64,000 bases of DNA from Victivallis vadensis. GTDB taxonomy: Bacteria; Verrucomicrobiota; Lentisphaeria; Victivallales; Victivallaceae. The position numbers were made by a program, and so were the translations under genes. The stretch is taken from positions 1-64,000 of the forward strand of contig NZ_QEKH01000025.1 in the NCBI RefSeq assembly GCF_003096415.1. Reading direction: 5' to 3'. Position 1 is the first letter of the stretch, and each line of letters opens with the position of its first letter. This document shows positions 52,496 to 64,000 of this stretch, piece by piece. The notes beneath the pieces are model-generated. The model was not told where the DNA came from. It searched no databases and worked only from the letters and a program-made list of their open reading frames with translations.

Positions 52496-52867
52496 TAAAA
52501 CAATAAAGATAAAGGCGGCAAAGCCGCCGGCCCGCACCGGCACGTTGCCGGTCGCAGTCCAGCGCGCGAACTGCGCTGGTCGCTTCGCGCAGGACCGCGC
52601 AGGCGCGGGCCGGAGCGGAGCGAAATGTAAGGTCTGCGAATGCGGACCGCAACCGGAACAGTACCTCACGGCGGAGCGCGCGTTCCTCAAAAAGCGCGAA
52701 GCAATTTTTTGAGGAACGGTTCAGAGCGCGCAGCCGCCGCGAGGGGCGGCGACAATGCCGAAGCATGACGGGAGCGGCCCGGACAGGTGCACTCCAAAGT
52801 GTGTTGCGGCCTGCGAAGACGATATGAAATTTAACATATTGATTGATATAAAACAGGAAAAACGAAT
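52496..52867. repeat. Intergenic hairpin mosaic, type with GCGAA loops
   Basis: 372 bp without a gene but with a chain of inverted repeats: GGCGGC AAA GCCGCC (52514-52528); CCGGCA CGT TGCCGG (52537-52551); CCAGCGC GCGAACT GCGCTGG (52559-52579); GTTCCTCAAAAA / TTTTTGAGGAAC (52682-52717) with GCGAAGC in the loop. The order 'CCGGCA hairpin, TCGnnnT linker, CCA..TGG hairpin, TCGCT' recurs at 57.3-58.0 and 63.8-64.0 kb with different stems. The last ~60 bp hold the leader of the hydrolase gene. Confidence 0.75.
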
Positions 52868-55800
52868 ATGGCACAGACTTTGAATCTTGCAAATCCGCCG
52901 GCGAAATACCGCCCGGTCCCTTTCTGGAGCTGGAATGAAAAACTTGATCCGGAGGTGCTGCGCGAGCAGGTCCGGCAGATGCACGAGGCCGGGCTGGGCG
53001 GCTTTTTCATGCATGCCCGCGGAGGATTGCAGACCGCCTACCTCTCGGAGGAGTGGATGGAGTGCGTGAACGCCTGCCTCGATGAGGCGGGCAAGCTCGG
53101 CATGGATGCGTGGCTGTACGACGAAAACGGCTGGCCCTCCGGCTTCGGCGGCGGGCTGGTCAACGGGCTTGGCGTGAAGTACCAGCAGAAATACCTGCGG
53201 CATGAGATCATCGACGCGGCGGAGGCGTGCAAGGACGATACGACCATCGCCTTTTACACCACCGACGGCGCGCTGATCGGGCGGACGCTGCCGGAGGGCA
53301 GCACGGGGCCGGTGCTGCGCTGCTACTACGAAATCAACCCGTTCTACGTGGACAACCTCGACGCGGAGGTGGTCGCGGAGTTCATCCGGGTCACCCATGA
53401 ATTCTACTACCGGACGATCCCGGAGGAGCTGCTCAAGCACCTGAAAGGCATTTTCTCCGACGAGCCGCAGCTGTCGCGCAAGGGACTTCTCTGGTCGTTC
53501 ACGCTGGAGGAGGCGTACTGGCAGGCGTACCACCGCGAACTGCTGCCGGAGCTGCCGATGCTGTTCCTCGGGATGGAGGGGAGCGACGGGATGCGCATCC
53601 GCTTCTGGAAGCTGGCGGCGCGGCTGTTCAGCGTGAATTTCATGAAGCAGATCCACGACTGGTGCGAAGAACACGGCTGGATGCTGACCGGACACCATGT
53701 GCTTGAGGAGAGCTGCCAGAGCCAGCTTTCGAGCAACGGCGCGATCATGCCGCAGTACCAGTACTACCATATTCCGGGCATGGACCACCTGTGCCGCACC
53801 GAACCCTCTCCGGTTGCGATGACCCAGCTGATGTCGGCGGCAATGCAGGCGGGGCGCAAACAGGTGCTGACCGAGAGCTTCGCGCTGTCGGGCTGGAACT
53901 TCAACTTCTCCGGGATGAAATGGATGTACCAGCAGCAGCTGGCGCACGGTGTGAACCTGCTCTGCCCGCACCTGCAGGGGTATTCGCTGCGCGGGCTGCG
54001 CAAGCGCGACTATCCGGCGTCGCTTTTCGTGCACCAGCCGTGGTGGGGCGACTATGCGAAGCTGAACGGTTATTTCGGGCGGGCCGGCATGCTGCTGGCC
54101 GAGGGCGAAGCGTCGACTCCGGTGCTGGTGATCCATCCGCTGTCATCGGCGTGGAAGCACTATACCGGCGACGACCATGAGCCGAAGCTCGACTTCTACA
54201 CGCAGACTTTGCTCAACACCACCCGTGCGCTCGACGCGCTGCAGATTCCGCACCACTATGCGGACGAGCAGCTGGCCGAGGATTACGGCTGTGTCGAAAA
54301 CGGCGAAATCCGGATCGGCGAAGTCGCCTATGAGCTGGTGATCGTGCCGCAGCTGACCAATTTCTCAAAGAAAACCGCGGAGCTGCTGCGGCAGTTCGCG
54401 GCGGCGGGCGGCACGGTGCTGACCGTCCGCAACCGGCTGGAACCGGACACGCTGACCATCGACGGCGAAGCCGCTCCGCAGGAGTTCCGCGACTGGTTCG
54501 CCCAGCTTCCGGCCTGCGATTCGGAAGCCGCCGCCGCCGAAATCGCCGCCGAACAGCTGCCCGGCCGGGTGATGATCACCGAACACGGCGTTCCGGCGCG
54601 GCGGCTGGTCGGCACTTATCGCGACTTCCGGGAGCTGGACGGACGCTCCGGCCGGTTCCACTTCATCGCGAATCTGCAGTACAACCAGCCCTGCAACGTC
54701 ACGATCGCGCTGCCGCGCACCGGGCGGCAGGTGGAGGTGATCGACCCCGTGACCGGCGAATTTTCGCTGCTGTCGGGGGTGCGGCGCAGCGGGAACCATC
54801 TGGTGTTCGACTATCCCTTTGCGGCGGGGGACGCCGCGATGTTCTTCGTGGCCGGGCACCCGGCGAAACACGCGCCGAAACTGCACGTTGAAGACGCGTT
54901 CGCGCTGCCGCCGGTGAAACGGCTGGACAACGGCTTCACCATCCGGGAGGATTCCGGCAACCTGCTGACGCTGGACCGCTGCCGCTACCGCGTGGACGGC
55001 GGCGAGTGGATCGCCGACGACGTCAGCGTGATCCACGGGCGGTTGCTGAACCTGAAGCACGACTGCGACCTCGAACTGGAATTCAGCTTCGAGCTGGCGC
55101 CGGATTTCGATTTCAACGCGCCGCTGACGCTGGTGGCGGAGACGCCGGAACGGTACCGCTTCAACTTCAACGGCCACGACTTCGACGCGGAGGACGGCGG
55201 GCCGCTGTTCGACCGGGCGTTCCGCAGGATCGCGCTGCCCGCCGCGCTGCGCCCCGGCCGCAACGTGCTGACCATGAAAACCCGCTACCACCAGCCCGAA
55301 GAGGTCTATGCGAAGTTGGAACGGGCGAAACAGTTCGAGACCGAGTACAATATGCTGACCTTCGACTCCGAAGTCGAGAGCGTCTATCTGTACGGCGACT
55401 TCTCGGTCCGCCATTCGGGGCGCACGGAGGAGCTGATCCGCGACGCGGAACGCTTCCACGGCGGCTTCGAGCTGGGCGCGCCGCTGGCGGGCAGCCGGGT
55501 CGACGCCTCCGATCTGGTGTGCGCCGGAATGCCGTTCTTCGCCGGCAAGGTCACCTTGTACAAGGAGTTCGAGCTGACCGCCGACGAAGCCGAGGCGATC
55601 CGTTACCTGCGCTTTGCGCCGCACGGCGCGAACTCTTTCGCCGTGAAGATCAACGGCGAAAACGCCGGAACCTGCTTCTGGGGGCCGTATGCGCTGCGGG
55701 CGGACGAGTTCCTGCGCGCCGGAGTCAACAAGCTCGAAATCGAGCTGACCACTTCGCTGCGCAACCTGCTCGGTCCGCACCACCTCGAAGAAGGCGAAAG

Positions 55801-55921
55801 CTACAGCGTCCACACGCTGAGCTTCAACCGCGAGGCGAATGCGGTCGGCTGGCCCGCCCCCGCCTACAATCCGGGGTACTGCTTCGTGAAGCTCGGCCTC
55901 ACGGAGCTGGTGCTGGCGTAA
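52868..55921 (+). CDS. GH106-like glycoside hydrolase (alpha-L-rhamnosidase-related)
   Basis: A 1017-aa protein. The start PPAKYRPVPFWSWNEKLDPEVLREQVRQMHEAGLGGFFMHARGGLQTAYLSEEW, then AWLYDENGWPSGFGGG, is typical of the GH106-like (Glyco_hydro_106) catalytic barrel. SDEPQLSRKGLLWSFT and GHHVLEESCQSQLSSNGAIMPQYQYYHIPGMDHL supply likely acidic catalytic residues. The C-terminal ~350 aa are beta-sandwich domains. No signal peptide is seen, so it probably acts in the cytoplasm on imported sugars. It starts an operon with an AraC regulator and a NUDIX enzyme. Confidence 0.85.
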   Translation: MAQTLNLANPPAKYRPVPFWSWNEKLDPEVLREQVRQMHEAGLGGFFMHARGGLQTAYLSEEWMECVNACLDEAGKLGMDAWLYDENGWPSGFGGGLVNGLGVKYQQKYLRHEIIDAAEACKDDTTIAFYTTDGALIGRTLPEGSTGPVLRCYYEINPFYVDNLDAEVVAEFIRVTHEFYYRTIPEELLKHLKGIFSDEPQLSRKGLLWSFTLEEAYWQAYHRELLPELPMLFLGMEGSDGMRIRFWKLAARLFSVNFMKQIHDWCEEHGWMLTGHHVLEESCQSQLSSNGAIMPQYQYYHIPGMDHLCRTEPSPVAMTQLMSAAMQAGRKQVLTESFALSGWNFNFSGMKWMYQQQLAHGVNLLCPHLQGYSLRGLRKRDYPASLFVHQPWWGDYAKLNGYFGRAGMLLAEGEASTPVLVIHPLSSAWKHYTGDDHEPKLDFYTQTLLNTTRALDALQIPHHYADEQLAEDYGCVENGEIRIGEVAYELVIVPQLTNFSKKTAELLRQFAAAGGTVLTVRNRLEPDTLTIDGEAAPQEFRDWFAQLPACDSEAAAAEIAAEQLPGRVMITEHGVPARRLVGTYRDFRELDGRSGRFHFIANLQYNQPCNVTIALPRTGRQVEVIDPVTGEFSLLSGVRRSGNHLVFDYPFAAGDAAMFFVAGHPAKHAPKLHVEDAFALPPVKRLDNGFTIREDSGNLLTLDRCRYRVDGGEWIADDVSVIHGRLLNLKHDCDLELEFSFELAPDFDFNAPLTLVAETPERYRFNFNGHDFDAEDGGPLFDRAFRRIALPAALRPGRNVLTMKTRYHQPEEVYAKLERAKQFETEYNMLTFDSEVESVYLYGDFSVRHSGRTEELIRDAERFHGGFELGAPLAGSRVDASDLVCAGMPFFAGKVTLYKEFELTADEAEAIRYLRFAPHGANSFAVKINGENAGTCFWGPYALRADEFLRAGVNKLEIELTTSLRNLLGPHHLEEGESYSVHTLSFNREANAVGWPAPAYNPGYCFVKLGLTELVLA

Positions 55922-55925
55922 CGCG

Positions 55926-56747
55926 ATGACGGCGCGGTTCGACCAGCTGGAACGGAGCTTCCGGGCGGCGGAGACGCTGCTCGGGCTTCGCATCACGGTG
56001 ATCGACAACGCGCATGTGTTCGCGACGCCGCGCGGCGCGGCGGTGTTTTCGGCGGAGCGGCGGTCGCACCGCAAGAATCCGGCCTGCGAAGCCGGTTTCG
56101 GCGACGGTTGCATCCGCCATTGCCGTTATGCGATGAACCGGCGGGCACTGACCGAAACGGAGCCGTTCTGCTGCGGCTGCTGGAAGGGGCTGACCCAGCT
56201 GGTGGTGCCGCTGCACTTCTGCGGCGTCCCCTACGGGATGCTTTACGCAGGTTTGTGGCGCAGCGCGGAACCGCCCGCCGGGCTGCCGCCTGAATTTCTG
56301 GAGGCGAGGCGCAATCTCCCCGCATTCGATCCCGAAGCCGCCGTCCGGCTCGGCGAGATGATGAAGCTGTACGCCGCCGGAGTGATGCAGTTGCTGCAGG
56401 AGCTGCACGTGCTGGAGCTTCCCGACGAACGTAGCGCGAAGATCCGCAGCTATTTGCGCGAAACCGCCGCCGGCAACGCGAACCTCCCCGAACTGGCGCG
56501 CCGCCTCGGACTGTCGCGGTCGCGCGCGAGCTTCGTGGTGCGTGAGTTGTTCGGCCGGAGTTTTACCGAACTGCTGCGGCAGGAACGCGTGGAGCGCGCC
56601 CGGCAGCTGATCGGCTGCACCGACCTGACTTTGAAGGAGATCGTCCCCTACTGCGGCTTCAGCGACGAATTTCACCTGAGCCGGGTGTTCAAACAGCATA
56701 CCGGAATGACGCCGACGGAGTTCCGAAGCAAGGAAAAATCATCATGA
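55926..56747 (+). CDS. AraC regulator with PocR-like sensor
   Basis: A 273-aa protein. Residues 1-160 form a PocR-like, cysteine-containing sensory domain (FGDGCIRHCRYAMNRRA, PFCCGCWKGLTQLVVPL, VPYGMLYAGLWR). Residues ~175-270 form the double HTH of AraC (LPELARRLGLSRSRASFVVRELFGRSFTELLRQERVERARQL, then LKEIVPYCGFSDEFHLSRVFKQHTGMTPTEFR). It is 4 bp after the GH106-like gene and overlaps the NUDIX gene. It probably senses a sugar or metabolite and controls this operon. Confidence 0.92.
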   Translation: MTARFDQLERSFRAAETLLGLRITVIDNAHVFATPRGAAVFSAERRSHRKNPACEAGFGDGCIRHCRYAMNRRALTETEPFCCGCWKGLTQLVVPLHFCGVPYGMLYAGLWRSAEPPAGLPPEFLEARRNLPAFDPEAAVRLGEMMKLYAAGVMQLLQELHVLELPDERSAKIRSYLRETAAGNANLPELARRLGLSRSRASFVVRELFGRSFTELLRQERVERARQLIGCTDLTLKEIVPYCGFSDEFHLSRVFKQHTGMTPTEFRSKEKSS

Positions 56748-57298
56748 CCGAAAACAGACCTCAGAAGTGGCAGGTGCTTTCCAGTGAATATCTGAGCCGC
56801 AAGCCGTGGTTCACGGTGCGGCGCGAATCGCTGGAACTACCCAACGGCAACCGCATCCCTGATTATTACGTGCTGGAGTATCCCGACTGGGTCAATGTGA
56901 TCGCGGTCACGAAAGCGGGCAAGCTCCTGTTCGTGCGCCAGTACCGGCACGGATTGGGCGAAGTCGGCGTCGAACTCTGCGCCGGAGTGCGGGAGAAATC
57001 CGACCCGTCGCCGGAGGCCGCCGCCCGCCGCGAACTGCTCGAAGAAACCGGCTACGGCGGCGGCAAGTGGCGGCAGTTCATGGTGCTTTCCCCGAATCCG
57101 GCCACCCACACCAACCTGACCTACACCTTTCTGGCGCAGGGCGTGGAACCGGTCGCCGCGCCGAATCCCGAGGCCACCGAGGACCTCTCCTGCGAGCTGC
57201 TGACTCCCGGCGAGGTGAAAGAACTGCTGCGGCGCGACGGCGTCCGGCAGGCGCTGATGGCCGCCGCACTCTGGAAGTATCTGGCCATAAATAATTAA
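56744..57298 (+). CDS. NUDIX hydrolase (ADP-ribose pyrophosphatase type)
   Basis: A 184-aa protein. The NUDIX helix is in AGVREKSDPSPEAAARRELLEETGY (about residues 80-104), with REL.EETGY intact. The first half of the box has one extra residue and lacks the usual first Glu, a small deviation. The N-terminus (VNVIAVTKAGKLLFVRQYRHGLG) is typical of ADP-ribose/nucleotide-sugar pyrophosphatases. It cleaves nucleotide-diphosphate compounds. ATGA overlap with the AraC gene. Confidence 0.88.
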   Translation: MTENRPQKWQVLSSEYLSRKPWFTVRRESLELPNGNRIPDYYVLEYPDWVNVIAVTKAGKLLFVRQYRHGLGEVGVELCAGVREKSDPSPEAAARRELLEETGYGGGKWRQFMVLSPNPATHTNLTYTFLAQGVEPVAAPNPEATEDLSCELLTPGEVKELLRRDGVRQALMAAALWKYLAINN

Positions 57299-57311
57299 AC
57301 AGCATGGCCCC

Positions 57312-58025
57312 GGGATTTCACTCCTTTCGGAGTGACCAAGGTGCTTCGCCCTTGGAACCCGACCGGCAAGGTGCCGGCGCCGGATACTTGAGAGCCGGGA
57401 AAGGCGGCACGCCTTTCCCTCCAAGAGGGGGAGGCTCCGGTAGAGACAGGCATGGTTGTACAGGAGCGGCACACCGCTCCGGTCGGCGCAAAGCCTGCTT
57501 TTTTGCAGGCTTCAGGCACTCCCTGCGCCTGCTGCCGCCGGAGGTCACGCGCGGAACCTCCAGATGCTGACCGGGTAGTAGACAGATACCCTGATGGAGG
57601 CTGATAAGAGTTTATCTGCCGATATATGCAAAGCGAGGTCAGGCAACAATACAATTGCCATATCACAGGCAAGCATATCTTTGAATGCGAGCCTTATTAA
57701 ACCTTGCCTGTATGAAAAGGCAGGGGAGAGTTCAGCCTCCATCAGAGTAACTTCACATCAGATGGTCAGCATCTGGAGGTTCCGCGCGTGACCTCCGGCG
57801 GCAGCAGGCGCAGGGAGTGCTCGGCGTCGGCAAAAAAGCCGACGCGGTCGCCGACCGGAGCGGTGTGCCGCTCCTGTACAACCTTGCCTGTCTCTATCAG
57901 AGCTCCCCCACCCGGAGGGAAAGGCGGCACGCCTTTCCCGGATCTCAAGTATTCGGCGCCGGCACCTTGCCGGTCGGGTTCCAAGGGCGAAGCGCCTTGG
58001 TCGCTCCGAGAGGAGCGAAATCCCA
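57312..58025. repeat. 714-bp nested palindrome (MITE-like)
   Basis: Two arms, 57312-57572 and 57774-58025, are inverted copies with about 201 bp between them. The inner ends are nearly identical over about 40 bp (GGTCAGCATCTGGAGGTTCC type); the outer parts differ at many places but keep their stems. Each arm is itself made of small hairpins: CACTCC/GGAGTG, CCAAGG..CCTTGG with a GCTTCGCC loop, GGCAAGGTGCC, GAGCGG..CCGCTC and GCCTGC..GCAGGC. In the spacer CTGATGGAGGCTGA is repeated inverted (57591 and 57732), and CAGGCAAG/CTTGCCTG again. No transposase gene is present. The frames on both strands are by-products of the symmetry. Confidence 0.85.
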
Positions 58026-58134
58026 TTAAAATCCTGAAACAGGACGATTCTTCATGATAATGCGCTGATTCTCCATTCCAAAATCCCGGTTTGCGGGTAT
58101 GTTATATGGTGTTCACTTCAGAAAGGGCAACATC

Positions 58135-60285
58135 ATGGACAACATCAGTGCTTCCAGCTATCTCGAACTCCTGAAACCGTGGCTCGCCAAGCTGCCGTCG
58201 TTCCTGCGCAAATCGGCATTCAACCCCGCGCTGACCTGTTACGGGACCGGGGAGAGCGCGCACTGGCCGACCCAGAGCAACTGCAACGTCTTCGCGGCGC
58301 TGGCGGTGCTCGGTACCGCGCCGGACCTGGACGACGACGCGCTGCCGATGAAGCGCGACGAGATTCTGGCGACCTCCATCGAACTGCTGCGCTACGCGAT
58401 GGCGACCCACCTGACCGGCCATGATCTCGCCTCCGACGGCAGACAGTGGGGACACCACTGGATCAGCGTGCTGGGGCTGGAACGCATGGCCCACGGCGTG
58501 AATGCGATCCGCGACCTCCTCACGGAGCAGGACCGCGACAACCTGAAGCGGATGATGATTTCGGAATCCGACTGGCTGCTGGAGTTCTATCCGGTCGAGG
58601 CCGGTCTGATCGGCAGCTCCGGCAAAAACAAGCCCGAATCGAACATCTGGAACGGCGGCATGCTGCTGCGCACCGCGCTGGATTACCCCGATGCGCCGAA
58701 CCGCGACCGCTATCTCGAAAAGGCGACCGCCTTTTTCCTGAACGGCCTGTCGCACCCGCTGGACGCCGCCTGCGAAACGAAGTTCCGCGACAAACCGGTG
58801 CGCGAATGGCACGCCGGCTTCAATTTCACTCCGAACTGGTCGCTCGACCACCACGCCTATTTGAACGTCGGCTACATCGTGGTCAGCCTGTCGAACCTCG
58901 CGATGATCCACTTCTACTGCAAGGAGCGCGGCTACGAAGCGCCGCCGGAACTCTACTGGCATCTGGAGGAGGTCTGGCAGATCACGAAGCGGTTCACCTT
59001 CCCGGACGGGCGGCTGCTGCGCATCGGCGGCGACACCCGCGCCCGCTACACCTACTGCCAGAACTACGCGATCCCGGTGTGGCTGATGGCGGCGGACCTG
59101 TTCGGCGACCGCGACGCGGCGCAGTTCGAGCGCGGCTTCCTCGCGCAGATGAAGTGCGAGCAGGAGTATTCCGGCGACGGCGGCTTCTACACGAAACGGC
59201 TCGACAACATCCGCCGGATCAACTATTACTACTACGCGCGGCTGGAAAGCGACGCGCCGCTCTGCCTCTCCTATGGCGCCTACTGGCGGCGCAAGTTCCA
59301 ACTGGCGCAGTGCCCGGAACAGCCCGCCGCGAATCCGCCGTGCGCGTGGCAGGACGAATACCACGGCGCGACGCTGAACCGTTCCCGGGGTGCAATCCGT
59401 TCGTGGGTGTGGCACGGCGCGCAGGGGCCGACCGGACTGTGCGTCCCGGCCTCCCGCAGCGACATGGCGGAGTGGCAGGGCAACCTGCACGGCTCGCTGC
59501 TCTCCACCCAGACGCCCGAAGCGACGCAGGGCGACAGCGTCCACTGCGAATTTGACGGCGGCTTCCTGAACTACGGCGAATGTTTCTGGCGCGAAACCGC
59601 TCCGCTCGGCGAAGGCGAACAGGTCTACGACTACGCCCGCCACCGGATCGTCTGCGCCGCACTGCCGGACGCGAAAACGATGCTGGTGCTGGAACGGGCC
59701 GTGATCCAAAAAGAGATCACCCTCGATTCGGTGCGCGGCATCGGCGTGAAGATTCCGAACGACCTTTTCAACGGCAGCCGCCGCCGCTACCGCGCCGCCG
59801 GTTTCGATGAAGTGCTGCCGGGCAATCCGGGCAAAGAGGACAGCCGCGCCGTCCCCTCCAACCACCTGCTGGTGGACGACGCGCTGGCGGTCACCGCATT
59901 GTACGGCACGGACAAATTGACTGTTTACCGTCCGGCAATTCCCCCGATCGTCATCCGCAAGGCGCACGGGCCGTGGCTGCACAGCCTCTACGCCGATGAA
60001 ATCTGCGGGCATTGCAGTACGGAAAACCAGCGGCTGATGCCCGGCGCCGTCGCTTTCGACGACGGCTTCGCGGTGACGGCGGCGAAACTGGCGGAACCGG
60101 CGAAGTTCCGGGCCGAAACCGCCGGGGCGCTGCGCCGGGTGGAATACGAAAGCGACGACGCGGCCTATTTGCTGATCGCGAACTTCGGCGATGAAACCTC
60201 GACGCCGCCGCTGCCCGCCGGAGCGAAGCTGCTGACCGGTTCGCCGGAGCTGGAACCGGGGGCCGCGCTGCTCTGCACGTTCTGA
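58135..60285 (+). CDS. Putative alpha/alpha-toroid carbohydrate-active protein
   Basis: A 716-aa protein. The N-terminal ~400 residues are helical with repeated W/H/Y motifs: GQWGHHWISVLGLERMAHGVNAIRDLL, NIWNGGMLLRTALDYPDAPNRDRYLEKA, NWSLDHHAYLNVGYIVVSLSNLAMIH, DGRLLRIGGDTRARYTYC. The C-terminal ~300 residues are beta-sheet. This two-part layout is that of heparinase/chondroitinase-type lyases and related glycan-active proteins, but I cannot name a family with certainty. No signal peptide. The start at 58135 has AAAGGG before it. It stands alone after the palindrome and could use a breakdown product of the GH106 pathway. Confidence 0.7.
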   Translation: MDNISASSYLELLKPWLAKLPSFLRKSAFNPALTCYGTGESAHWPTQSNCNVFAALAVLGTAPDLDDDALPMKRDEILATSIELLRYAMATHLTGHDLASDGRQWGHHWISVLGLERMAHGVNAIRDLLTEQDRDNLKRMMISESDWLLEFYPVEAGLIGSSGKNKPESNIWNGGMLLRTALDYPDAPNRDRYLEKATAFFLNGLSHPLDAACETKFRDKPVREWHAGFNFTPNWSLDHHAYLNVGYIVVSLSNLAMIHFYCKERGYEAPPELYWHLEEVWQITKRFTFPDGRLLRIGGDTRARYTYCQNYAIPVWLMAADLFGDRDAAQFERGFLAQMKCEQEYSGDGGFYTKRLDNIRRINYYYYARLESDAPLCLSYGAYWRRKFQLAQCPEQPAANPPCAWQDEYHGATLNRSRGAIRSWVWHGAQGPTGLCVPASRSDMAEWQGNLHGSLLSTQTPEATQGDSVHCEFDGGFLNYGECFWRETAPLGEGEQVYDYARHRIVCAALPDAKTMLVLERAVIQKEITLDSVRGIGVKIPNDLFNGSRRRYRAAGFDEVLPGNPGKEDSRAVPSNHLLVDDALAVTALYGTDKLTVYRPAIPPIVIRKAHGPWLHSLYADEICGHCSTENQRLMPGAVAFDDGFAVTAAKLAEPAKFRAETAGALRRVEYESDDAAYLLIANFGDETSTPPLPAGAKLLTGSPELEPGAALLCTF

Positions 60286-60360
60286 TTCCGGTGAAAAAGC
60301 CGTTTTTGCAGTTGTAAAAAGGCAGCCTCCGTGCCATATTGGGTACGGAGGTTTCTTTGT

Positions 60361-60768
60361 ATGCTGCGCAACTCTTTATCCTGGTTTGAACTGCTCTGGA
60401 GCTGGGGGCCGCTCGCGGCGGCGATGCTGCTGAACGCGCTCCCCGCCCTCCGTAAATCCCGGAACCCGCAGCTGGCGGTCGCCCGGAAAGCAAGCGCCGG
60501 CTGTGCGCTGTGGCTGCTGCTGGCGGGAGCCGGCTTGATCGGTACGATGGTTCTGACCGGCAGAATTATGCTGCTCACCGGCCCGGCGGCCGGTGTGATT
60601 GCCATTGCAGCCGCTGTCCGCTCCATCCGGAACTGGCAGCGGAAACAGTTCCCGGAAGAAAAACCCCGTCCCCTGATAGTCGCAACGATTCTGGCGATGC
60701 TGGTCGCCGCGCTCGCATGGACGGCAGGATGGATCGCATACCGGATATGGTTCGGCAGAACATATTGA
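60361..60768 (+). CDS. Small membrane protein, unknown function
   Basis: A 135-aa protein with four predicted membrane segments (LLWSWGPLAAAMLLNALP; GCALWLLLAGAGLIGTMVL; IMLLTGPAAGVIAIAAAV; PLIVATILAMLVAALAWTAGWIAY). Short loops are basic. GGAGG lies upstream of its ATG. No family recognised. It is convergent with priA. Confidence 0.65.
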   Translation: MLRNSLSWFELLWSWGPLAAAMLLNALPALRKSRNPQLAVARKASAGCALWLLLAGAGLIGTMVLTGRIMLLTGPAAGVIAIAAAVRSIRNWQRKQFPEEKPRPLIVATILAMLVAALAWTAGWIAYRIWFGRTY

Positions 60769-60831
60769 ATCAGGGATGCGGCAGAATAACGCCGTATATA
60801 AGTTTCTTGGACCGGGATTTTCCAAGGAGAT

Positions 60832-63063
60832 TTACAACAGTGATTGGGCGTCGACATCGACATAGACTTCGACGCCTTTCGGGGGCTGGCGGTGCAGTGC
60901 GAGCACCCGGAGCGCCTGCCGCAGCAACTTGAGCCTGCTGCCGCGGATGACCAGCATATAACGGAATTTACCCTTGATCCGTTCAATCGGAGCCGGAGAG
61001 GGACCGGCGAAGCGGATTCCTTCATGGCCGTAACGCTGCAGTTCAGCGGTGAAACCGTTGGCGAACTCCACGACCATGCTTTCGTCCTCGCCGCGGAAAT
61101 GCACGATGATCAGATGCGTGTAAGGCGGGTATGCGAGCAACTGGCGGAATTCGAGGTCGAATTTGGAAAAGCCGTCGAAGTCCTGTTGGGCGGCGTACTG
61201 GATGGTTTCGTTTTCCGGGTTGTGAGTCTGGATGATCACTTCGCCCCGGATGTCGCCGCGACCGGCGCGGCCGGCGACCTGCGTGATCAACTGGAAGGTG
61301 CGTTCGGGCGCACGGAAATCCGGCATGGAAAGGCCGAGGTCCGCATTCACGATGCCGACCAGCGTCACGTTCGGGAAATGCAGTCCCTTTGCGATCATCT
61401 GCGTGCCGATCAGAATGTCCAGTTCGCCGCGCCGGAACCGTTCCAACACCGCCTCATAGTCGTCCGCCCCGCGCATTGTGTCGGAATCCATCCGAGCGAT
61501 CCGGGCGGGTTTGAACACCGCTCCGGCGAGGCTTTCGATCTTCTCGGTGCCGACTCCGGCGTAACGGATCTTCGGGGACAGGCACTGCGGGCAAAGCTCG
61601 TAAGCCGGAATCACCCCGCCGCACAGGTGGCAGGTCAGGGTTTCGCGCTGTCTGGAGTAGGTATAGGCAACCGAACAATCCGGGCAGCGCGCCTCGAAGC
61701 CGCACTCCTCGCAGATCATCACGCGCGCGTAGCCCCGCCGGTTCAGGAAGATGATGCTCTGCTCGCCGCGCCTCATCCGGTCGAATACCGCCGTGATCAG
61801 CGCTTTGGAGAAAAAGTTGCTCTTGCCCGGCTCCGGCGGCCCCGCCAGCCGCTGGTCCACGATGGTCACGCGCGGAGCGAGTTTGTTGTCCACCTGCGCC
61901 GCCATCCGCGCCAGCAGGAATTTGCCGGTTGAGGCGTTGTAGCTGGTTTCGGCGGAGGGAGTTGCGGAGCCGAGGATCACCACCGCCCCCTCGAGCTTGC
62001 CGCGCATCACCGCGACGTCGCGGGCGGAATAGCGGGGAGCTTCGGACTGTTTGTAACTGGACTCGTGCTCCTCGTCCACGATGATCAGCCCGAGGTTGCG
62101 GAACGGCGCGAACAGCGCGGAGCGCGCCCCGACCGCGATCTGCACCTCGCCGTTGTTGATCCGGTTCCATTCATCGAACCGCTCTCCGTCGGAAAGGCGG
62201 CTGTGCAGCACGCTCAGCTGATCCCCGAAGCGGGCGCGGAAGCGGCGCACCGTCTGCGGTGTCAGCGAAATCTCCGGCACCAGCACGATCGCCGACTTCC
62301 CCATCTCCCTTGCCTTGGCAATTGCCTGCAGATAAACCTCGGTTTTGCCGGAATTCGTGACTCCATGCAGCAGCAGCACGTGGCTGGAAGTCTCGCCGAG
62401 CAGCATTTTCCCGATCAGTTCGAGCGCTTTTTTCTGGTCCGCCGACGGCGGCAGCGGCTTGCTCGGCAGCACGTGCGAGTCCCCGAACACATCGCGCCGC
62501 ACGATCTCCTCGACGGTTTCGACGATCTTATTGCGGATCAGGGTATTCAGGCCGGACTGACTGAATGCCGGAACCAGTGATTTCAGACTGTCCGCCGGCT
62601 GCGCCCCATGCGCCAGCAGCGCCTTTACCAAGTCCACCCGGAGCGCCGCCGACGGTTTTGTGCCGTTGCACGCGACGAAACTTTCGGCGGCGGCGACATC
62701 GGCGATCCGGTAGAGGCGGCGGATTCTGGGTTTGATTTTGCCGCTGCGCACCGCGGCGGGCAGCAAAGTCCGGATCGACTGCTCCTGGCTGCAGCAGTAG
62801 TAATCCGCCATCCACCGGCCGAGAGTCACGAGGTGTTCGGGAATATTGGCGCGGGTTTCGCAAAGTCCGGTGATCGGCTTGAGCCTGCCGCCGGTGTAGT
62901 CGCTGCTGTCGGCCAGACTGAGCACATAGCCTTCGCGGGTCGAGTGGCCGAAGGGAACGCGGACCATCACGCCGACCTTGATCTGCGGCAGCAACGTTTC
63001 CGGGATCAGGTAGTCGAACTCCTTATCCAGCGAAACATCGATGATGACTTTTGCGATTGCCAT
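60832..63063 (-). CDS. priA: Primosomal helicase PriA
   Basis: A 743-aa protein. The N-terminal DNA-binding domain (FDYLIPETLLPQIKVGVMVRVPFGHSTREGYVLSL) and cysteines YCCS are typical. Helicase motifs: VTNSGKTEVYLQAI (Walker A), IVDEEHESSYKQ (DEEH), LGSATPSAET, and the zinc-binding stretch CEECGFEARCPDCSVAYTYSRQRETLTCHLCGG...CPQC. C-terminal motifs GTQMIAKGLHFPNVTLVGIVNAD and QVAGRAGRGD complete it. PriA restarts stalled replication forks. The gene is complete and of normal length. Confidence 0.96.
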   Translation of the reverse strand: MAIAKVIIDVSLDKEFDYLIPETLLPQIKVGVMVRVPFGHSTREGYVLSLADSSDYTGGRLKPITGLCETRANIPEHLVTLGRWMADYYCCSQEQSIRTLLPAAVRSGKIKPRIRRLYRIADVAAAESFVACNGTKPSAALRVDLVKALLAHGAQPADSLKSLVPAFSQSGLNTLIRNKIVETVEEIVRRDVFGDSHVLPSKPLPPSADQKKALELIGKMLLGETSSHVLLLHGVTNSGKTEVYLQAIAKAREMGKSAIVLVPEISLTPQTVRRFRARFGDQLSVLHSRLSDGERFDEWNRINNGEVQIAVGARSALFAPFRNLGLIIVDEEHESSYKQSEAPRYSARDVAVMRGKLEGAVVILGSATPSAETSYNASTGKFLLARMAAQVDNKLAPRVTIVDQRLAGPPEPGKSNFFSKALITAVFDRMRRGEQSIIFLNRRGYARVMICEECGFEARCPDCSVAYTYSRQRETLTCHLCGGVIPAYELCPQCLSPKIRYAGVGTEKIESLAGAVFKPARIARMDSDTMRGADDYEAVLERFRRGELDILIGTQMIAKGLHFPNVTLVGIVNADLGLSMPDFRAPERTFQLITQVAGRAGRGDIRGEVIIQTHNPENETIQYAAQQDFDGFSKFDLEFRQLLAYPPYTHLIIVHFRGEDESMVVEFANGFTAELQRYGHEGIRFAGPSPAPIERIKGKFRYMLVIRGSRLKLLRQALRVLALHRQPPKGVEVYVDVDAQSLL

Positions 63064-63630
63064 GTTGCAGAATTTCTTTTTCCGTTATGAATGCGAATGG
63101 ATAATATACCGGGTGGAACCGTGAATTTCAATACCGGTCAACACAGATTGCGAAACCGTAAAAAAAGCGGCCTGGAGCGGAAAGGGGGAACATATCTATT
63201 GCTCGATCGCACTTTATCGTTGCGAAAGGGGGGACAGAATATCTATGACTTTCCGGCTTCAAGCCGCCAAAAGTGGGGAAAAGAGGCGGCTTGAAGCCGG
63301 TGAGGAGTCCATGCACATTGAAACCGGGCGCAGCCCGGGAGGAGAAGAGAATGCACATGGTTTGCCCGACTTCAAGTCGCCAACCCGTGAAAAAAGCGGC
63401 ACCTATCAAAGGTACAGCTAGTAGGCCTACCACAGCCCGTCACGAATACACAGTAATAGATGCCGCAAAAAGCGACAAAAATACTGCGGTACGTGACAAA
63501 GAAAGTGGTAGTTTACTAGCAGTCCGCTTCAATTTTCAATCAACTGCTCAAAATTACACCTCTTTAATGGAAAAGTCAAATTGTTTTTCGCGGAAAAACT
63601 ATTTATCATCAAAAAACAAGATAGATTTCT
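63064..63630. other. Upstream of priA: long hairpin, direct repeats, no gene
   Basis: No gene is supported. A perfect 16-bp hairpin CCGGCTTCAAGCCGCC (63253-63268) / GGCGGCTTGAAGCCGG (63285-63300) is present. Two direct copies of GAAAGGGGG(G)ACA..ATATCTAT (about 63179 and 63224) lie just before it. From about 63410 to 63640 the DNA is AT-rich and looks like a foreign or degenerate segment. The priA promoter is expected near 63064-63120 but no clear hexamers stand out. Confidence 0.55.
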
Positions 63631-63654
63631 TACTGCCGGAGGCGAGTTGCGATG

Positions 63655-63968
63655 GGGAAGCCTGCCGTTTTGAAGGCAGGCGGGTCTGCCCGCCCTGTCG
63701 TGCGGCAGACCTTGTGCGCTACGCGGCCTGATTTGCAATCAGGCTCCGGTAGCTGGGCGCAGTAGCGCACAAATTACCTCCGGTGGGCAAGGCGCTTCGC
63801 CCTTGCAACCCGACCGGGTAGCACCCGGCGGCGAGTACCGCCGATAGAGCCAATAAACTGATAGATAATACCCCCGGTTTTGAGATTTTTGCGCAGCAAA
63901 AATCTCGAAACCGTACCCGGCGCCGGCACCTTGCCGGTCGGGGGGACCGGGGGGCGAAGCGCCCCCGG
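63655..63968. repeat. Chained hairpin mosaic at the right end
   Basis: Consecutive inverted repeats fill this stretch: GCCTGCC/GGCAGGC, GGTCTGCC/GGCAGACC, GCCTGAT/ATCAGGC, GTGCGCTAC/GTAGCGCAC, GCAAGG CGCTTCGC CCTTGC (63787-63806), CCGGGT AGC ACCCGG (63814-63828), GAGATTTTT/AAAAATCTC (63882-63906), CCGGCA CCT TGCCGG (63923-63937) and CCGGGGG GCGAAGCG CCCCCGG (63947-63968). Two units with the same two-hairpin architecture face each other. The unit is related to those at 52.5 and 57.3-58.0 kb. Confidence 0.85.
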
Positions 63969-64000
63969 CCGCCGGAGGCACCGATTACCGCGAAAAGCGG

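Follow-up and report, generated by a model that had tools for sequence, protein, structure and literature searches.

Five hairpin-bearing units in the gaps between genes of a Victivallis vadensis contig raise the question of whether template switching on DNA can produce compensating changes, a pattern commonly taken to prove that selection acts on RNA. An earlier note on the window (the whole 64,000-nucleotide stretch analysed here) had placed these units at 52.5, 57.3, 58.0, 63.8 and 63.95 kb, and all of them were recovered, three by a covariance model that lacked them. The note described them as lying alone or in inverted pairs. This holds for the single unit at 52.5 kb and the inverted pair at 63.8/63.95 kb, but one palindrome spans 57.3 to 58.0 kb and carries the remaining two units as its ends. 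The proposed order of H1, linker and H2 followed by TCGCTCC-type sequence also stands, except that each unit comprises three hairpins (H1, H2 and H0) rather than two, the TCGCTCC-type part being the 5' half of H0. The units are as follows.

52536-52598, + strand: lone unit, diverging more than the others, with CCAGCGC/GCGCTGG as its H2 stem
57312-57378, - strand: unit at the left end of the 713-bp palindrome, H0-H2-H1 on the - strand; model R1, E 2.9e-13
57958-58024, + strand: unit at the right end of the 713-bp palindrome; model R1, E 3.1e-14
63768-63829, - strand: member of an inverted pair; model R1, E 1.7e-10; absent from the model
63922-63989, + strand: inverted-pair partner of 63768-63829; model R1, E 1.5e-8; absent from the model

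Model R1 is a 62-position covariance model built from 14 units, namely the two 57.3/58.0 kb ends, further copies and units taken from two more genomes; the 52.5, 63.8 and 63.95 kb units were left out. Scanning the window with it returned both palindrome ends and all three left-out units (E 1.7e-10 to 1e-5). With filters off, the 52.5 kb unit scored E 9.6e-6 across 52536-52629; for 52536-52598 the value was E 2.8e-4. The same scan of the window gave no sixth convincing unit, the next match having an E of 0.14. The 63.8 kb pair forms part of a larger run of hairpins at window positions 63590-63989 (GGTCTGC..GCAGACC, GTGCGCTACGCGG..GCAGTAGCGCAC and CGGTTTTGAGATTTTTGCGCAGCAAAAATCTCGAAACCG), and this run is found again as a block at other places in the genome (L231-L238).

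Extending the covariance scan beyond the five units, as the earlier note had proposed, revealed abundant further copies, and the existence of a family is directly supported. The genome holds at least 150 units. Some of these belong to about 36 large copies of the palindrome: a set of 34, of which one is truncated by the end of its contig, a further copy in L124 and a rearranged one in L242. The remaining units are single, form inverted pairs (the 63.8 kb pair being one example) or repeat every 332 bp in arrays. A systematic 800-kb sample contained 13 units and no large copies. Among relatives, we found 27 matches in G005, 20 in G011, 18 in G014, 5 in G026, 3 in G018 and one in each of four more genomes, while six of eight same-genus genomes had no unit matches and a draw across the phylum under stricter filters gave matches in 3 of 145 genomes. 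The units are thus patchy across related genera and absent from most of the phylum. In G005 they form arrays with spacings of roughly 133, 268 or 287 bp and with further hairpins (L093-L103). The nearest named relatives of one window protein come from Lentisphaerae MAGs, at about 60% identity. A search of viral contigs for the repeat gave no match, and the papers searched included no work on repeats of Victivallis or Lentisphaerae.

The two units at 57.3 and 58.0 kb close a palindrome with the following parts; H1, H2 and H0 of the right end unit, both H3 hairpins and both H5 hairpins were read from the sequence.

57312..58024: nested palindrome of 713 bp with ends GGGATTT...AAATCCC and inverted repeats I1-I3; one of the approximately 36 large copies
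57397..57419: left-arm H3 hairpin, GGGAAAGGCG-GCA-CGCCTTTCCC
57490..57512: left-arm H5 hairpin with a T6 loop, its stem having four alleles across the copies
57572..57764: asymmetric centre; conserved from copy to copy, with part of it duplicated in some
57824..57845: H5 hairpin of the right arm, with an A6 loop on the + strand; alleles among copies
57917..57939: H3 hairpin of the right arm; also a self-match
57958-57974: H1 of the right end unit
57981-58000: H2 of the right end unit
58001-58018: H0 of the right end unit

The 713-bp palindrome gives a near-complete fold with an energy of -618 kcal/mol and a z of -50, and every large copy consists of two multi-hairpin arms around an asymmetric centre. 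Two + strand neighbours enclose the window palindrome, one a gene with a NUDIX domain, the other a 728-codon ORF that matches nothing in Pfam. Six copies have about 93 bp of the centre duplicated in tandem, and in C49 the duplication reaches about 196 bp (L045, L046, L050, L054, L058, L059, L036). Two copies, C6d and C25b (L062 and L047), share a hairpin-rich stretch of about 125 bp in place of the inner half of one H5, which is a further palindromic sequence within the palindrome.

A structure-blind MAFFT alignment showed pairing in 94.3% of cells, with 29 cells changing on both sides compared to 8.5 ± 2.2 after shuffling, and much lower values in slid controls. In an alignment of 82 distinct units, which was fitted to the model and is biased towards it, unlike the MAFFT alignment, 194 cells changed on both sides versus 50.3 ± 5.1 expected, and sliding the partners by one base cut pairing from 93% to 45% or less. 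The persistence of the hairpins as their stems change, which the earlier note had described, is thus directly supported, with pairing changes far above both shuffled and slid controls. To call this the mark of selection on structure goes too far, since template switching in quasi-palindromes is a source of multi-base compensating changes without selection (PMC8794818) and inverted loops are present. Template switching also inverts spacers, in yeast only where the arms exceed 9 bp (PMC8604942). The 10-bp H3 stem fits this rule, and the hairpin occurs with both orientations of every common loop: GCA/TGC 5:3, GAA/TTC 10:21, GTA/TAC 1:7 and AAA/TTT 4:11. The H1 and H2 loops show no inversions (67/67 and 66/66 in one orientation), which could be explained by their shorter stems or by selection; together with the linkers, these invariant loops suggest some constraint.

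G-U wobble accounts for 1.1% of pairs in the unit stems (first pair left out) compared to 4.4% in the acceptor and anticodon stems of tRNAs from the same sample, a comparison that involves few tRNAs with stems less GC-rich than those of the units. Between the two arms of a copy, the H2 and H0 alleles agree above chance (p = 0.001 and 0.02, respectively), and the H3 and H5 alleles show no agreement beyond chance. Since the latter vary independently, what is always kept is the set of small hairpins and not the giant stem. The scarcity of G-U pairs, the loops in both orientations and the matching outer hairpins suggest DNA template switching, and we favour a DNA-level process for the stem pairing; selection on DNA hairpins may be compatible with the same facts. 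The stems would stay paired largely through template switching and conversion, in which one arm of a hairpin is rewritten to match its partner. Multi-base compensating changes, homogenisation of arms and spacer inversion are shared with template-switch mutation in hairpins as reported elsewhere (PMC8794818, PMC8604942). Unlike those cases, ours involves many copies of one family in one genome, with events read from allele patterns and undated on a tree. With about 36 copies, two arms each and several hairpins per arm, the family offers a natural test set for the origin of compensating stem changes.

The same observations bear on the structured RNA that the earlier note had offered as an option. 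A functional RNA, either a large non-coding RNA or a processed transcript under selection on RNA pairing, would be in keeping with three hairpins that covary across genera, a very stable fold and a conserved centre. It is nevertheless very improbable, given the rarity of wobble pairs relative to tRNA stems, the near-symmetry of the two strands, the independence of H3 and H5 alleles between arms, and a unit number that ranges within one genus from at least 150 to none. Rfam at both thresholds yielded only a tRNA elsewhere in the window and nothing near threshold for the palindrome. The central region was also considered separately as a structured RNA and ruled out by its little covariation.

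Both neighbouring genes were called for 31 large copies. Convergent genes flank 22 of these, compared to a background of 12.0% (p = 3.5e-14), the background being the junctions in the 800-kb sample with genes called by a simple hexamer score, and divergent genes flank 2. Most of the convergent large copies are within about 30 nt of stop codons. For other units the count is 10 of 24 convergent (p = 2e-4) and 1 divergent. That copies adjoin gene 3' ends, mostly of convergent genes, is thus directly supported, and REPs of other bacteria show the same preference for gene 3' ends (PMC3733652). Location alone makes a putative function at transcript ends likely. We consider it doubtful that the element primarily terminates transcription in both directions or stabilises 3' ends and was selected for this where convergent genes end, with mobility secondary: although the convergent excess is marked, the distance is often 30 nt or less from both stop codons and the element is symmetric on both strands, purging of insertions elsewhere predicts the same location, which REPs in general show (PMC3733652), and the end hairpins have no T-tract behind them. 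Terminator-like patterns in the region number 17 versus 14.3 ± 3.8 in shuffles, which is no excess. In the reading we favour, copies would persist where they are least harmful, and may there end or stabilise transcripts from both sides.

Comparing the family with REP, BIME and REPIN elements of the GTAG and CGTC superfamilies reveals a close likeness (PMC3733652). Both are short, GC-rich, high-copy hairpins that occur singly, in inverted pairs or in arrays; both adjoin the 3' ends of mostly convergent or co-directional genes, have stem alleles with compensating changes and are patchy among close relatives. The many extragenic palindromes typical of REP/BIME families are matched here by the at least 150 units with their inverted pairs and 332-bp-period arrays, and both large copies and other units lie at gene 3' ends and rarely between divergent genes. 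High copy number, arrangement, location and spread across genera therefore bear out the REP-like mobile hairpin family that the earlier note had suggested. Unlike REPs, the family builds each unit from three hairpins, keeps the H1 and H2 loops invariant and includes a nested palindrome of 713 bp; a consistent GTAG or CGTC tag and a RAYT were not found. When 93 units were examined together with 12 nt on either side, GTAG (GTRG), the tetranucleotide that marks the hairpin foot in its superfamily, was inconsistent, occurring in 6 (+) and 16 (-), and CGTC, the tag at one hairpin end in the other superfamily, was not constant either, at 24 (+) and 30 (-). The search for a RAYT-like transposase, a check named in the earlier note, detected no Y1/RAYT gene (PF01797) in this genome and no unit (E <= 0.01) beside any of 20 Y1 loci of relatives. 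Because these tags and, for GTAG, the RAYT are wanting, we keep the family out of both superfamilies. It is best read as a previously undescribed variant of the REP/BIME-like type, some copies of which were mobilised as IS982 MITEs. That it was amplified in Lentisphaerota with no RAYT detectable is relevant to the question of how REP-like repeats spread.

Some copies have the outer flank ACGCCGTGTGCAAGTTT, and this links them to IS982, since an IS982-family insertion sequence has it as its terminal repeat. G018 holds this insertion sequence in full (1038 bp), with a transposase that matches NF033520 (E 5e-66); the transposase was read from this relative, the IS body in the V. vadensis genome being unrecoverable from the assembly. 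That genome shows seven left and eight right IS ends, almost all at contig ends, and 6 of the 7 left ends pair with a right end carrying an identical 6-mer, versus 0.016 expected. Seven palindromes carry IS982 repeats on both sides; four of them (74 to 854 bp) have a perfect 6-bp target duplication and three do not. Among 65 large-copy ends, 15 carry the repeat, which is also found on small palindromes, and 50 stop sharply at GGGATTT without it. Terminal repeats and exact 6-bp duplications point to a few copies having moved as IS982 MITEs by the resident transposase. In these two features the copies resemble IS982-family MITEs, whereas most large copies have neither, are palindromic almost throughout and measure 700–900 bp, compared to a usual MITE size under 500 bp (PMC10969869). 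It is improbable that all large copies are ordinary IS982-family MITEs, some of which have lost their terminal repeats. The resident IS, the four palindromes with exact duplications and the 15 repeat-bearing ends favour this, but random loss would not leave 50 ends stopping at the same base, target duplications of 3–9 bp are absent from the 22 large copies lacking the repeat on both sides, and repeat-free genomes and arrays also hold units.

The majority that end at GGGATTT without duplication would have spread by another route, such as insertion at hairpin apices, a single-strand route or recombination between copies. The position of C17b, exactly at the tip of a 27-bp inverted repeat, is a hint of insertion into hairpins; there is published precedent for REP dimers within palindromes (PMC3733652). 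Inverted repeats in the flanks do not hold up as a target rule for the copies in general, being strong for C17b and C11 alone (overall p = 0.053). These two copies hint that the large core, GGGATTT...AAATCCC, could be a new mobile nested palindrome that inserts at the apices of hairpins or at terminators where convergent genes end, with neither a target duplication nor a Y1 transposase, its small hairpins continually rewritten by template switching, a reading we regard as unlikely. We are probably dealing with a non-autonomous REP/BIME-like interspersed repeat family, partly moved by IS982, with stems rewritten by template switching. Its core would be the three-hairpin unit H1-linker-H2-H0, deployed singly, as an inverted pair, in tandem arrays or at both ends of a 700–900-bp nested palindrome. 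In an empty-site comparison at the window palindrome, the two neighbouring genes did not lie together in same-genus genomes and were only about 70% identical. As an autonomous element, a gene between two units was sought, and the sole candidate (L208) reads as a glycosyltransferase.

The 6-bp duplications allow contigs to be joined across collapsed IS copies (L134-L148), giving the pairs C60/C18, C38/C14, C35/C41, C30/C24, C13/C27 and C49/C6. In G014, IS982-like remnants of 820, 512 and 304 bp carry a variant terminal repeat, GCCATGTGCAAGTTT (L180-L182), and the two shorter ones look internally deleted.
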